DNA of 35,837 nt from Nitrososphaerota archaeon (GTDB taxonomy: Archaea; Thermoproteota; Nitrososphaeria_A; Caldarchaeales; Wolframiiraptoraceae). A model generated the notes under the pieces. That model was not told the origin of the DNA and searched no databases. It was given only the letters and a program-made list of their open reading frames with translations. Of this stretch, positions 232 to 32,165 are shown piece by piece. The DNA lies in NCBI GenBank assembly GCA_021163925.1, contig JAGGTD010000016.1, positions 1-35,837 on the forward strand, read 5' to 3'. Made by a program: the position numbers and the translations under genes. Every line of letters begins with the position of its first letter. The stretch's first letter is position 1.

Positions 232-1416
232 ATGATAAAACTCGCCTTAAGCCCCCTCGGCGTCATAGCTCTGAGGGACGATGAGCTATTGGCATCTAGG
301 CTATTCAAGGGGGATCCCGCCTCGATAGCCTCGAAGTTCTCGAAGGCTTCAAGCGGGGAGCTCGTGGATGAGGTTAAGGACTTGATGGATGAGGTCGCGG
401 CTGGAGATGTTGAGGAGGTTTTGGTCGAGCCTCCAACCCTGATCCCAGCCCTCTCCCAAAGCTATCGAGGGGTGAGGTTTAGGGAGCTTGAGGAGCCGAT
501 AAACATCGAGGAAGTCTTCGTCAAAAATGGCTTGGTGAGAGATTTAGACGAGTATAGGAGGAGGGTTAAGGAGGTGATGGACTCGCTGCTCGTGACCGAG
601 CTTAAGGAGGCGGTTGCGCGGAGAGATGTGATGATCGTCCACGCAGTCCACGTCTTAGAAGACTTGGATAAGCAGATAAACATGTTCTACACGAGATGTA
701 GGGAGTGGTATGGGCTGCACTTTCCCGAACTCGCAGACCTAGTAGATGAGCCTGAAGAGTATATGCGGATAGTTGCCGAGCTCGGCTCTAGGAAAAACTA
801 TACGATCGAGGGGCTTAAGAAGATCTTGGGGAGCGCGAGAAAGGCCAAGGATGTCCTCGAGAAAGCCGAGGCATCTATTGGAGCTGAGATGAGCCCAGAG
901 GATGAGGAGAGGGTTAAGGATGTTGCGAGAGAAGGGCTTAGGCTGATCAAGTTGAAGAGGGAGCAGGAGAACTACATCAAGGAGCTCATGTCGGTTGAGG
1001 CCCCGAATCTCTCAGCGATCGCAGGCCCAATTCTAGGGGCTAAGCTCATCTCCTTGGCCGGTGGATTGGAGAAGCTCGCGAGGCTTCCAGCGAGCACGAT
1101 CCAAGTCCTTGGAGCGGAGAAAGCTTTATTCAGATTCTTCAGAACCGGTAGAGGCGCTCCAAAGCATGGGATAATCTTCCAGCATCCATATGTTCATGGA
1201 TCTCCGAGATGGCAGAGAGGGAAGATAGCTAGATTGTTGGCGGCGAAGATAGCGATAGCCGCTAGAATAGACTACTTCTCAAGGGAGGATAGGAGTTCTG
1301 AGCTCAGGAAGGCCCTTGAGGAGAGGTATGCTGAGATCAAGCAGAAGTATGCTCAGCCTCCAGCGAGAAAGCCTAGGAAGAAGCGTGGTAAGCGTAGGTC
1401 GAGGAGACGTAAATGA
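232..1416 (+). CDS. nop5: Nop5/Nop56, C/D box RNP scaffold protein
   Basis: This is the scaffold of the archaeal box C/D RNP, which carries out guide-directed 2'-O-methylation of RNA. It joins L7Ae bound to the K-turn with fibrillarin, the methyltransferase. Its 394 residues are normal for the family. An N-terminal fibrillarin-binding part is followed by a long charged coiled coil (about residues 110-250). The Nop domain follows, with its signature GPILGAKLISLAGG near residue 265 and GAPKHGIIFQHP near 306. The last 17 residues are a lysine/arginine tail, as usual in this family. It is followed after 27 nt by fibrillarin, the standard archaeal pair. Identification is secure. Confidence 0.97.
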   Translation: MIKLALSPLGVIALRDDELLASRLFKGDPASIASKFSKASSGELVDEVKDLMDEVAAGDVEEVLVEPPTLIPALSQSYRGVRFRELEEPINIEEVFVKNGLVRDLDEYRRRVKEVMDSLLVTELKEAVARRDVMIVHAVHVLEDLDKQINMFYTRCREWYGLHFPELADLVDEPEEYMRIVAELGSRKNYTIEGLKKILGSARKAKDVLEKAEASIGAEMSPEDEERVKDVAREGLRLIKLKREQENYIKELMSVEAPNLSAIAGPILGAKLISLAGGLEKLARLPASTIQVLGAEKALFRFFRTGRGAPKHGIIFQHPYVHGSPRWQRGKIARLLAAKIAIAARIDYFSREDRSSELRKALEERYAEIKQKYAQPPARKPRKKRGKRRSRRRK

Positions 1417-1443: not shown

Positions 1444-2139
1444 ATGGTGGGAATGGTCGAGGTTAAGCCTCATGAGAAGTTTGAGGGAGTCTATTGGATA
1501 ATTGACACGGAGAAGATTTTGGCGACGAAGAATCTAGCTCCAGGAGTTCAGGTCTATGGCGAGAGACTGTTTAGGGTTGGTGGAGTCGAGTATAGGGCTT
1601 GGATACCCTATAGGAGTAAGCTCGCGGCCGCCATCCTGAAGGGGATTAAGGAGATATTCATAAGACCTGGTTCAAAGGTCCTCTATCTCGGAACCGCCAC
1701 GGGGACGACGTCAAGCCATGTATCAGATATAATCGGAGAATCTGGGATACTATATGGGGTTGAGTTCGCCTCAAGAGTCATGATCCAGTTTAAGCGGAAC
1801 GTCGCCGATAGGAGGCCTAATGTGATCCCAATATTCGCTGATGCGAGGAAGCCCTCAACCTATGCTGGAATCGTTGGAGAGGTCGATGTGATATATTGCG
1901 ATGTCGCCCAGCCCGAGCAGGCGAAGCTCTTCTCAGACAACGCTAGATTGATGTTAAGGAGCAAAGGTCATGGATTGATCGCGGTCAAGGCTAGGAGCAT
2001 AGATAGCGTCGAGGAGCCTGAGGCCGTCTATAGAAGGGAGATCGAAACTCTGGAGAAAAATGGATTGAAACCGTTAGAGGTGGTTGATCTTGAACCATAT
2101 GAGAGGGATCATGTAATGGTAGTCGTTGAGTATCGATGA
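1444..2139 (+). CDS. flpA: Fibrillarin-like rRNA/tRNA 2'-O-methyltransferase
   Basis: This is the catalytic subunit of the C/D box RNP. It transfers methyl from S-adenosylmethionine to the ribose 2'-OH of the nucleotide selected by the guide RNA. The 231-residue length is typical. The SAM-binding motif VLYLGTATGTTSSHVSD lies near residue 79. GVEFASR follows as the acidic loop, and VDVIYCDVAQPEQA matches motif IV of fibrillarins. Archaeal fibrillarins lack the glycine/arginine-rich N-terminus of eukaryotes, and so does this one. It is cotranscribed with nop5. An in-frame second ATG four codons in is an alternative start. Confidence 0.97.
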   Translation: MVGMVEVKPHEKFEGVYWIIDTEKILATKNLAPGVQVYGERLFRVGGVEYRAWIPYRSKLAAAILKGIKEIFIRPGSKVLYLGTATGTTSSHVSDIIGESGILYGVEFASRVMIQFKRNVADRRPNVIPIFADARKPSTYAGIVGEVDVIYCDVAQPEQAKLFSDNARLMLRSKGHGLIAVKARSIDSVEEPEAVYRREIETLEKNGLKPLEVVDLEPYERDHVMVVVEYR

Positions 2140-20584: not shown

Positions 20585-21496
20585 ATGGATAAGCCTATAA
20601 CTATCTATGGTGTCAAGCTGCCGCTCATCGAGGAGAGATGCGACCTAGCCCAAGCCATAGTCGATTCCGCTAGAAAGCAGGGATTGGAGCTAGAGGATGG
20701 AGACATCATAGTGATCACATGCAAGATCGTCTCAAAGGCCCTCGGCCTCCTCGTTAAGCTCGATGATGTGAAGCCGTCGACGAGAGCGGTGGAGATCGCG
20801 TCTAGGGCTGGATGCGATCCGAGGTTTGTCGAGCTGGTCTTGAGGGAGAGCGACGATGTCGTTGCAGCTATTCCCGTTAAGAGGCTCGCCGATGAGGGGC
20901 TTATCCCCCTATACTCATATTCTAAGAAGCCTGAAAATGTTAAGCGATGCTTGGAGAAGTATCCGACGATCTTCCTCGTGACCCGGGATGGAAGCCTCTG
21001 GAGCGATGCAGGCCTCGACTCCTCAAACCATCCACCTGGAGTCATATCCATACCTCCCAGAGACTTAGACGAGGTGGCTAAGGCCATAAGAGATAGAATT
21101 AAGGAATTGACCGGCAGGGATGTCGCGGTCGTCATCTCAGATACGGAGATCTTCTTAACAGGTTCACTCGACTTCGCTAGGGGATCTTATGGGATAGAGC
21201 CTATCGAGCGAGGATTCGGCGAGCCAGACCTATATGGTAAGCCTAAGTTCGGGGGAGTCGACGCGATAGTCCATGAGATATGCTCGGCGGCCGCCTTGAT
21301 GATGAGGCAGACGGCTCGCGGGATACCTGTCGTGATAATCAGGGGACTCGACTATGAGAGATGTGAATGCGGATATCATGATAGGGTTAAGATGAGCTCG
21401 GAGGGGTGGGCGAGGATATTGAAGCATGTGTTAAGGGAGACTAGGAGGGTTTTGGGATTAAAGAATCTCTTAAGAATGCTCTTAGAGTTCATTTAG
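20585..21496 (+). CDS. Divergent CofE-family protein without the catalytic motif
   Basis: A homologue of the F420-0:L-glutamate ligase family. The N-terminal half aligns with true CofE: GLELEDGDIIVITCKIVSKA, SRAGCDPRFVELVL, then SDAGLDSSN (140-148) where CofE has ANAGVDxSN. At residues 185-187 the SDT is kept, but the following GRPxR of active CofE is replaced by EIFLTGS. The C-terminus is longer (303 residues) and carries YERCECGYHDR with Cys260 and Cys262. It may use another substrate or be regulatory. The canonical copy is at 30262. Expressed alone; its start is ATG 20585. Confidence 0.8.
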   Translation: MDKPITIYGVKLPLIEERCDLAQAIVDSARKQGLELEDGDIIVITCKIVSKALGLLVKLDDVKPSTRAVEIASRAGCDPRFVELVLRESDDVVAAIPVKRLADEGLIPLYSYSKKPENVKRCLEKYPTIFLVTRDGSLWSDAGLDSSNHPPGVISIPPRDLDEVAKAIRDRIKELTGRDVAVVISDTEIFLTGSLDFARGSYGIEPIERGFGEPDLYGKPKFGGVDAIVHEICSAAALMMRQTARGIPVVIIRGLDYERCECGYHDRVKMSSEGWARILKHVLRETRRVLGLKNLLRMLLEFI

Positions 21497-30261: not shown

Positions 30262-31020
30262 ATGGATCTCCCAAAGGTCGAGATAATCGGTGTCAAGGGT
30301 ATACCGATAATCGGGGAAGGAGATGATCTGGCATCGTTGATAGTCGAGGCCGTTGAGAGGATGGGATTGAATCTGAGGGATGGAGACATATTGGTGGTCT
30401 CGCAGATAGTCGTCTCGAAGTCCGAGGGGAGGGTGAGAAAGCTCGAGGAGTATAAGCCATCGAGATTCGCCGAGGAGATCGCCAGGAAATCTGGTAAAGA
30501 TCCAAGACATGTCGAGGCAATACTTCAAAGCTCTAAGAGGATCGTTAGGATGAGGGATGGACTGCTTATCTGCGAGGCGGTCGGAGGCCACATCTGCGCA
30601 AATGCGGGGGTAGATCTCTCGAATGCGGGGATAGGTAGAGTCGCCCTCCTACCGGAAGATCCAGACCTCTCGGCGAGGAGGATTAGGGAGAGAATCAAGG
30701 AGCTCGCTGGAGTAGATGTCGCCGTCATAATCTCCGACACCCATGGGAGACCGTTGAGAAGGGGCTCCATAAACGTGGCCATAGGATGCTCTGGATTAAA
30801 GCCGATTCTAGACAGGAGGGGTGAGAGAGATCTCTATGGTAGAACCTTGAGATCAAAGATGATCTGCGTCGCCGATGAACTCGCCTCAGCGGCTGAGCTC
30901 GTCATAGGCCAAGCCGATGAGGGGATTCCGGTCGCGATCATAAGGGGCTATAAGTTTGAGAGGGGTGAGGAACCCGCGAGCACGATTCCTAGGAGTGAGA
31001 GGGATGACCTCTTCCTCTAG
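30262..31020 (+). CDS. cofE: Coenzyme F420-0:L-glutamate ligase
   Basis: CofE adds glutamates to F420-0 using GTP, finishing the deazaflavin cofactor. The canonical motifs are all here: LNLRDGDILVVSQIVVSKSE, GHICANAGVDLSNAG (110-124), ISDTHGRPLRRG (157-168), and the C-terminal ELASAAELVIGQADEGIPVA. 252 residues is the usual size. It implies that the organism makes F420. It follows livF by 32 nt, probably without functional meaning, and overlaps the next gene by 17 nt. Confidence 0.95.
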   Translation: MDLPKVEIIGVKGIPIIGEGDDLASLIVEAVERMGLNLRDGDILVVSQIVVSKSEGRVRKLEEYKPSRFAEEIARKSGKDPRHVEAILQSSKRIVRMRDGLLICEAVGGHICANAGVDLSNAGIGRVALLPEDPDLSARRIRERIKELAGVDVAVIISDTHGRPLRRGSINVAIGCSGLKPILDRRGERDLYGRTLRSKMICVADELASAAELVIGQADEGIPVAIIRGYKFERGEEPASTIPRSERDDLFL

Positions 31021-31738
31021 GATAATCGTCGGCAAGATATTGGAGACTATTCTAAAGCTGACGGCGGAGAAAGCTGAGGTTAACCCGCAGGAGATCGCGG
31101 AGCATTCCCTCACCTCGGAATCGATAGTGAACGAGGTCTTAAACAAGTTCGGTCTAAGGAATAGAATAGGTTTTGAGCGGAGGGTTAAGGCGGCGTTGGA
31201 GGCGATTAGGCTTGGAGTCGATGGTGAAAGGATTTCGAGATACTTGGATTGGAGGGAGTTTGAGGGCCTCGCCGCCGAGGCGTTCACGGAGATCGGATAC
31301 GAGGTTTACGGCGACTTGAGATTCAAGTATGGAGGTAGAAGGCATCAAATCGATCTACTAGCATATAATGGAATCCTCATGCTACTAGTGGATTGTAAGC
31401 ATTGGAGGAAACCTCCATCGCCATCTGAGGAGGAGAGGATGATCGTCGAGCAGGAGAGGAGGCTCATGGATCTAAGAGATGCTTTAAGCACTCTTTGGAG
31501 AGGTTCCGGAGAATTGAAGGGGATAACTTTGATCCCAGTAATCCTGACCATCTATGAGCCGAAGAAGAAGCTCCTCCAAGGCCACATGTTCATATCCGTC
31601 GGAAAACTTAGGGGAGCCCTCGAATACTTGGAGAGGTCATATTATGAGTTGAGGGGTGAGGTGATTAAGGTTCCGAGAGATCTAGGTTTAGATGAGCTGG
31701 TAAAGCCCCTCAAAAGATTAAATAGATGGGTCGGCTGA
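31004..31738 (+). CDS. PD-(D/E)xK nuclease-like (Mrr-related) protein
   Basis: An N-terminal helical domain (about residues 1-75) is followed by a nuclease-fold domain: WREFEGLAAEAFTEIGYEVY, then HQIDLLAYNGILMLLVDCKH. Asp117 and the D-x-K at 130-132 match the metal site of Mrr/Holliday-resolvase-like nucleases, with Asp in place of the usual Glu. Conserved in archaea by my recollection; function unknown. ATG 31004 is chosen because AGGAG lies 8 nt upstream, and the frame from 30956 overlaps cofE too far. 244 residues, cotranscribed with cofE. Confidence 0.75.
   Translation: MTSSSRIIVGKILETILKLTAEKAEVNPQEIAEHSLTSESIVNEVLNKFGLRNRIGFERRVKAALEAIRLGVDGERISRYLDWREFEGLAAEAFTEIGYEVYGDLRFKYGGRRHQIDLLAYNGILMLLVDCKHWRKPPSPSEEERMIVEQERRLMDLRDALSTLWRGSGELKGITLIPVILTIYEPKKKLLQGHMFISVGKLRGALEYLERSYYELRGEVIKVPRDLGLDELVKPLKRLNRWVG
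31717..31724 (+). promoter_or_regulatory. TATA box of guide RNA candidate 3
   Basis: ATTAAATA within the last codons of the nuclease-like gene predicts a start near 31746, 9 nt before the C box of the candidate RNA. Confidence 0.45.
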
Positions 31739-31745
31739 GTTATTG

Positions 31746-31812
31746 ATGCGCCCGATGAGGAGCCTGTTGCTCACGCTGAGTAGTGATGAGCCATAGGGTC
31801 TCGGAGGGCTAG
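31746..31812 (+). ncRNA. Candidate box C/D guide RNA 3
   Basis: In a 70 bp gap the order is: GCCC (31750-31753), C box ATGAGGA (31755-31761), 14 nt, D' CTGA (31776-31779), 3 nt, perfect C' GTGATGA (31783-31789), exactly 12 nt guide (31790-31801), weak D box CGGA (31802-31805), and GGGC (31806-31809) pairing with the first element. The guide GCCATAGGGTCT is complementary to AGACCCUAUGG, 11 contiguous bases. As I recall, this matches the universal 23S segment near E. coli 2060-2070 in a common variant. The D+5 rule selects the C equivalent to C2064. The imperfect D box is the main weakness. Confidence 0.6.
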
Positions 31813-32165
31813 AATGGGATGAATTCGAGTATGGTTATTTGGATCATGAACACCATGATCAGGGCGAGACCTATCGATTCGAGTATCTTTGACACCAATT
31901 CATCTCTAACCCGCCTTAAAATCATCATCCCAAATCCTCCTAATGCGTGAAGGGCTACGAGCACGCCGATGAAATACTTTAGGTGAGTTACTGTATGGAT
32001 TAATATGCTTCTAGCCCTATCCATGAATCCGAGGGTCAATATACTAGCCTTGACCGTGACCAATCCATAGCCTGAGAGAAACATTAGGTAGAGCCCTATG
32101 GCGATTGGAATGGAGGTGTATTCGACGAGCATTAGATAGATCCTCAACCTAGTCTTTCTCTCCAT
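31809..32165 (-). CDS. Small membrane protein with intramembrane histidines
   Basis: 118 residues with three or four hydrophobic spans: IPIAIGLYLMFLSGYGLVTV, then HLKYFIGVLVALHALGGFGM, then IGLALIMVFMIQITILEFIP. Histidines in ILIHTVTHLKYFIGVLVALH lie on one helix face, as in cytochrome b-type haem proteins, but no family is recognised and haem binding is only a guess. ATG 32165. Its stop codon overlaps the 3' end of guide RNA candidate 3 on the other strand. Confidence 0.65.
   Translation of the reverse strand: MERKTRLRIYLMLVEYTSIPIAIGLYLMFLSGYGLVTVKASILTLGFMDRARSILIHTVTHLKYFIGVLVALHALGGFGMMILRRVRDELVSKILESIGLALIMVFMIQITILEFIPF

Follow-up and report, generated by a model that had tools for sequence, protein, structure and literature searches.

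The DNA at positions 31750-31809 of the window (the whole 35,837-nt stretch of Wolframiiraptoraceae DNA that was analysed) very probably encodes a genuine archaeal guide RNA for methylation beside the catalytic centre of the ribosome, as judged by comparative sequence analysis. With high confidence, its predicted product is read as a double-guide C/D box sRNA in which the D guide would address C2064 of 23S rRNA and the D' guide most likely A2577. The observations behind this reading are the anatomy of the gene, its conservation and synteny, the complementarity of its guides to 23S rRNA, a guide/target co-change in the sister genus g2, and the presence of genes for the partner proteins.

Anatomy, conservation and neighbourhood of the sRNA gene

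The 60-nt gene was read directly from the letters of the forward strand, and the closing stem and the C, D', C' and D boxes were found in the order and within the 70-bp gap given by the original prediction, as was the 12-nt second guide GCCATAGGGTCT. From 5' to 3' the elements are GCCC, G, ATGAGGA, GCCTGTTGCTCACG, CTGA, GTA, GTGATGA, GCCATAGGGTCT, CGGA and GGGC. The gap filled by the sRNA lies between the end of a forward-strand ORF at 31738 and the stop codon of a reverse-strand ORF at 31809-31811. The features of the window used below are as follows.

31750-31809 (+), C/D box sRNA gene including closing stem (direct reading, relaxed archaeal C/D models, pattern scan, orthologues)
31750-31753 (+), closing stem 5' strand GCCC (pairs with 31806-31809)
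31755-31761 (+), box C ATGAGGA (direct reading and orthologue comparison)
31762-31775 (+), D' guide GCCTGTTGCTCACG, 14 nt (probable target A2577, alternative G2447)
31776-31779 (+), box D' CTGA (direct reading and orthologue comparison)
31783-31789 (+), box C' GTGATGA (direct reading and orthologue comparison)
31790-31801 (+), D guide GCCATAGGGTCT, 12 nt (complementary to 23S rRNA 2060-2070; D+5 is C2064)
31802-31805 (+), box D CGGA (orthologue comparison)
31806-31809 (+), closing stem 3' strand GGGC (pairs with 31750-31753)
31718-31724 (+), TATA-like TTAAATA, 25 nt before the RNA (direct reading; putative promoter element)
30956-31738 (+), gene for an Mrr-like protein (PF04471), conserved neighbour of the sRNA
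232-1416 (+), gene for Nop5 (PF01798), C/D sRNP partner protein
1444-2139 (+), gene for fibrillarin (PF01269), guided methyltransferase

The size and box order agree with those of archaeal C/D sRNAs (about 50-70 nt; C, D', C', D), with one mismatch each in boxes C and D. When both strands of the window were scanned for a C-guide-D'-C'-guide-D pattern with a closing stem, only the sRNA locus matched, and the same scan of 30 Markov-simulated windows gave no match. No Rfam family exceeded its gathering score at the locus. At a relaxed threshold the best matches were archaeal C/D families, placed exactly over the sRNA and aligned end to end, of which snoPyro_CD (RF00095) was best (28.3 bits against a cut-off of 45, E value 2e-4), followed by sR10, sR41, sR1 and sR14. 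The covariance search proposed with the original prediction thus recovered the same stretch, though at scores below the gathering cut-offs for membership in snoPyro_CD or the sR families. The TATA box had likewise been placed at the right distance; TTAAATA sits within the 3' end of the upstream ORF, and an A/T-rich element resembling it was found at equal distance in the same-genus relative.

By DNA search of 31700-31860 against 40 relatives, 89% identity was detected in one same-genus genome, and four genomes of three other genera gave 75-83% identity over 31750-31808 or little more. The part conserved across genera is the RNA alone, namely its stem, all four boxes and its D guide CCATAGGGTC. 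Conservation of the D' guide is restricted to its core, GCTCA, which is invariant among orthologues. Six sequences served to build a covariance model, and they themselves count among its family matches. The model detected the sRNA in 13 of 22 Wolframiiraptoraceae genomes at 60-84 bits, all 13 with an identical CCATAGGGTC. It also detected diverged orthologues, scoring 28-30 bits, in two genomes of a second family; their box C is AUGAUGA and their box D CUGA. Relatives therefore conserve the boxes and the D guide, a point on which the original prediction had been made to depend. Weak matches of 16-21 bits (L075, L081-L085) were treated as chance, a 25.6-bit match in G040 was not accepted as an orthologue because its guides differ, and no orthologue was found in G014. 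Two of the four closing-stem pairs change on both sides among the 15 orthologues, which is modest evidence given that these are related. The sRNA sequence is present in records of Candidatus Benthortus, Geocrenenecus and Terraquivivens, and NCBI taxonomy places Terraquivivens and Benthortus within Wolframiiraptoraceae. A pattern search for C2064 guides in 398 genomes of the phylum gave seven matches, in families f1 and f3 only; this pattern requires TGATGA and CTGA, so it misses the window sRNA and its g4 orthologues and its result is no proof of absence elsewhere.

Synteny was read from coordinates in 12 of the 13 family carriers (all except G013). In 11 of these 12 genomes and in both second-family genomes the sRNA was found to adjoin the 3' end of the Mrr-like gene, which usually comes after an F420 ligase gene. 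The exception is G016, where the Mrr-like and F420 ligase genes are about 1.7 kb from the sRNA. The sRNA and the Mrr-like gene lie on opposite strands in four genomes of the Terraquivivens group. As a separate observation, the F420-0:gamma-glutamyl ligase domain (PF01996) occurs in two genes of one 36-kb contig, at 20585-21496 and 30262-31020. The genes for Nop5 and fibrillarin are adjacent (232-2139) on the same window as the sRNA and an L7Ae-family gene lies on a different contig, so that the genome encodes L7Ae, Nop5 and fibrillarin.

Predicted targets in 23S rRNA and a second sRNA in g2

Because 23S and 16S genes were not found in the window's own assembly, the 23S gene of the same-genus genome G001 was used as a stand-in. 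The best site of the D guide in this 23S was found to be AGACCCUGUGG, with 11 contiguous pairs (10 Watson-Crick and one G.U), above the at least 9 bases that the original prediction had called for; 13 of 1000 shuffled guides scored as well. The claim of 11 complementary bases at 2060-2070 stands as 11 contiguous pairs and not as the full match to AGACCCUAUGG: that proposed target is absent from the 23S of all relatives, and with AGACCCUGUGG in its place the 11-nt duplex holds one interior G.U, which is found in all family orthologues. The 2060-2070 segment was the top or joint-top 23S site of the D guide in the genomes tested, except G013. The 23S of G013 (L038) is itself g2-like at 2045-2090 and like that of its own genus at 2430-2450, as in a chimeric assembly or a mixed population. 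The fifth guide base upstream of box D faces C2064 in E. coli numbering, which was checked on rrlB, in agreement with the nucleotide originally named. Guides of about 10-12 nt that end at D or D' and act at position +5 are the rule, and the D guide conforms with its 11 pairs; the D' guide is weaker, with 7. Taken together, these results indicate with high confidence that the sRNA is aimed at C2064. Cm2064 was not found in the literature searched, and published target lists for other archaea may already include a C2064 guide. In relatives (e.g., L048, L051, L052) the archaeal 23S model is matched over stretches of up to 5.5 kb, an indication that these 23S genes hold several insertions or introns.

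For the D' guide, the core GCTCA matches UGAGC at 2575-2579 in orthologues, with A2577 at D'+5. In the second family this guide pairs with GUGAGCUGG through 9 pairs, its best 23S match there, and the D' box is degenerate, so the +5 rule would fall on a neighbouring base. In the G001 23S of the window's genus, the duplex at A2577 has 7 pairs (2573-2579), and an alternative at 2446-2456 has 11 pairs, including two G.U, and would point to G2447; this score was reached by 227 of 1000 shuffled guides. The 11-pair duplex depends on G2448, which was found in G001 alone. The G001 23S (L056) carries G2444 and G2448 in place of the A of the other relatives compared, and these may be assembly errors since they come from one MAG. 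Pairing of the D' guide with GAGCUUU just 3' of the D target was rejected, as the g4 23S reads GAGGUUU and the g4 guide keeps AGCTC. We predict with moderate confidence that the D' guide is aimed at A2577. By sequence context and numbering, we take this to be the equivalent of yeast A2946 and human A4493. Both appear in a table of methylated sites, with snR71 and U29, respectively, as their guides (PMC8817022).

In g2, the Mrr-like gene is kept in all eight genomes and no sRNA was found beside it, two of these loci being short. Where the sRNA is missing, a short conserved ORF was observed immediately 3' of the Mrr-like gene (L133-L139); its peptide is acidic and contains tryptophan, with runs of E together with W (e.g., MIWAEFEEEWEEEEEEWDEEEEW). 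Seven of the eight genomes carry a different sRNA at a different locus (L124-L130), with C2064 at D'+5. Position 2062 lies beside the peptidyl transferase centre and is normally A. All three g2 23S genes that cover the site, in G002 (L041), G009 (L046) and G015 (L042), have U2062 (AGUCCC), and an A stands at the facing position in all seven g2 guides; T faces A2062 in all 15 orthologues of the window RNA. The U2062 and the guide A in g2 form a matched guide-target change, which may reflect a single evolutionary event. In three genomes the D guide of the g2 sRNA can form 10 Watson-Crick pairs with about 2437-2446, so that the two guides of this sRNA would join both strands of helix 74, the C2064 region (D') and 2437-2446 (D).

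Variation of the box C/D k-turn

The C and D boxes have the bulge GAU (31754-31756), tandem GA/GA pairs and G31760-C31802 between C6 and D1 of a k-turn, the G-C pair being invariant in the 15 orthologues. The next pair, where U.U or at least one U is expected, is G31759.G31803. Position 5 of box C is G in the window's genus, A in the family's other genera and T in the second family; box D is CGGA in the window's genus and CTGA in every other orthologue. As this position faces position 2 of box D (3b.3n), the window's genus has a G.G pair here, the other genera of the family have A-U and the second family has U.U. The original prediction was thus right that ATGAGGA and CGGA depart from consensus, but the departure is variation at the level of the genus, and the relatives' boxes are canonical.

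The requirement for U at 3b.3n is not strict, since k-turns with other pairs, even the poorest folder, fold with L7Ae; a Watson-Crick pair at this position gives poor folding when only ions are present, and G at 3n permits folding (PMC4382518). The -1b:-1n pair of the sRNA k-turn is C:G, which is favourable for folding (PMC5689011). The G.G k-turn of the window's genus would be predicted to fold more readily without L7Ae. A standard k-turn filter would reject G.G in place of U.U (PMC7994747). The shift from A-U to G.G amounts to a natural experiment in how k-turns fold, and predictors that demand a U at 3b.3n would miss RNAs of the G.G form.

Proposed function and comparison with known systems

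We infer that the sRNA is transcribed, assembles into an RNP, directs methylation and may have a chaperone role. The C/D pair would form a k-turn closed by the GCCC/GGGC stem and the C'/D' pair a k-loop, to which L7Ae, Nop5 and fibrillarin would bind. Pairing of the D guide with 2060-2070 would bring fibrillarin to the ribose of C2064, beside the peptidyl transferase ring, and the D' guide would most likely address A2577, on a different strand of the same 23S region. With its guides on two strands of one region, the RNA may therefore also keep two portions of domain V together while the subunit folds.

It is conceivable, if unlikely, that the sRNA is mainly a folding chaperone whose two guides clamp strands of the peptidyl transferase region (2060-2070 and 2446-2456 in the window's genus), with methylation secondary or absent. 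The 11-nt D' duplex in the same-genus 23S, one pair of which is made by A2448->G, speaks for such a role, as do the g2 sRNA, which likewise joins C2064 to the opposite strand of helix 74, and yeast snR190, a C/D RNA that serves at the root of domain V as a chaperone and does not direct methylation (PMC8536666). The frequency with which shuffled D' guides equal this score and the origin of G2448 in one MAG weaken the case, and the D/D+5 geometry for C2064, needless for a pure chaperone, is kept exactly in all orthologues. A compound proposal, which we regard as doubtful, is that in the window's genus the sRNA was retargeted to clamp both helix 74 strands (the D guide holding 2060-2070 and the D' guide 2446-2456, which includes A2451) in concert with A2448->G in its own 23S, and its C/D k-turn moved to a G.G form that folds without L7Ae.

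Many archaeal guides are orphans or directed at tRNA (PMC7994747), and the D-guide target search was confined to rRNA; nevertheless, the same rRNA site across genera, the independent g2 sRNA aimed at C2064 and the matched change at 2062 make it very improbable that the D guide of a real C/D sRNA has a tRNA or mRNA as target and pairs with 23S by coincidence. Short boxes, half of them off consensus, are what might be seen in a chance resemblance at 31750-31809, yet the confinement of conservation to the RNA across genera, its constant neighbourhood and the lack of matches in simulated windows leave next to no room for there being no RNA gene. We thus favour the double-guide sRNA aimed at C2064 and probably A2577.

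Archaeal C/D sRNAs are well known, as is the clustering of methylation around the peptidyl transferase centre (PMC4644070, PMC7994747); the sRNA is therefore a further member of this kind. It shares the box order, spacing, double guide and size of the Rfam archaeal families (RF00095, sR10, sR41, sR1, sR14) and differs from them in its guides, its sub-cut-off scores and its G.G in place of U.U. No C/D sRNA study of Wolframiiraptoraceae was found by literature search, and the sRNA family and its matched changes with rRNA look new; they provide a comparison-supported guide RNA family in this uncultured group. The yeast snR71 (Am2946) and human U29 (Am4493) guide methylation of the A that matches A2577 by context (PMC8817022), and these eukaryotic snoRNAs are likened to the window sRNA by target position. 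Similarly, snR190 pairs close to the C2064 region, but it has degenerate C'/D' boxes, does not direct methylation at G2395, and pairs through a second element with domain I (PMC8536666). A further counterpart is the g2 sRNA, which has C2064 at +5 yet differs in its locus, in the use of the D' rather than the D guide, in its match to U2062 and in its partner guide for 2437-2446. Sister genera thus have two non-orthologous sRNAs for one nucleotide of the catalytic centre, with a guide change that matches an rRNA change, and this opens to testing the idea that what selection retains is the modified site and not the gene.
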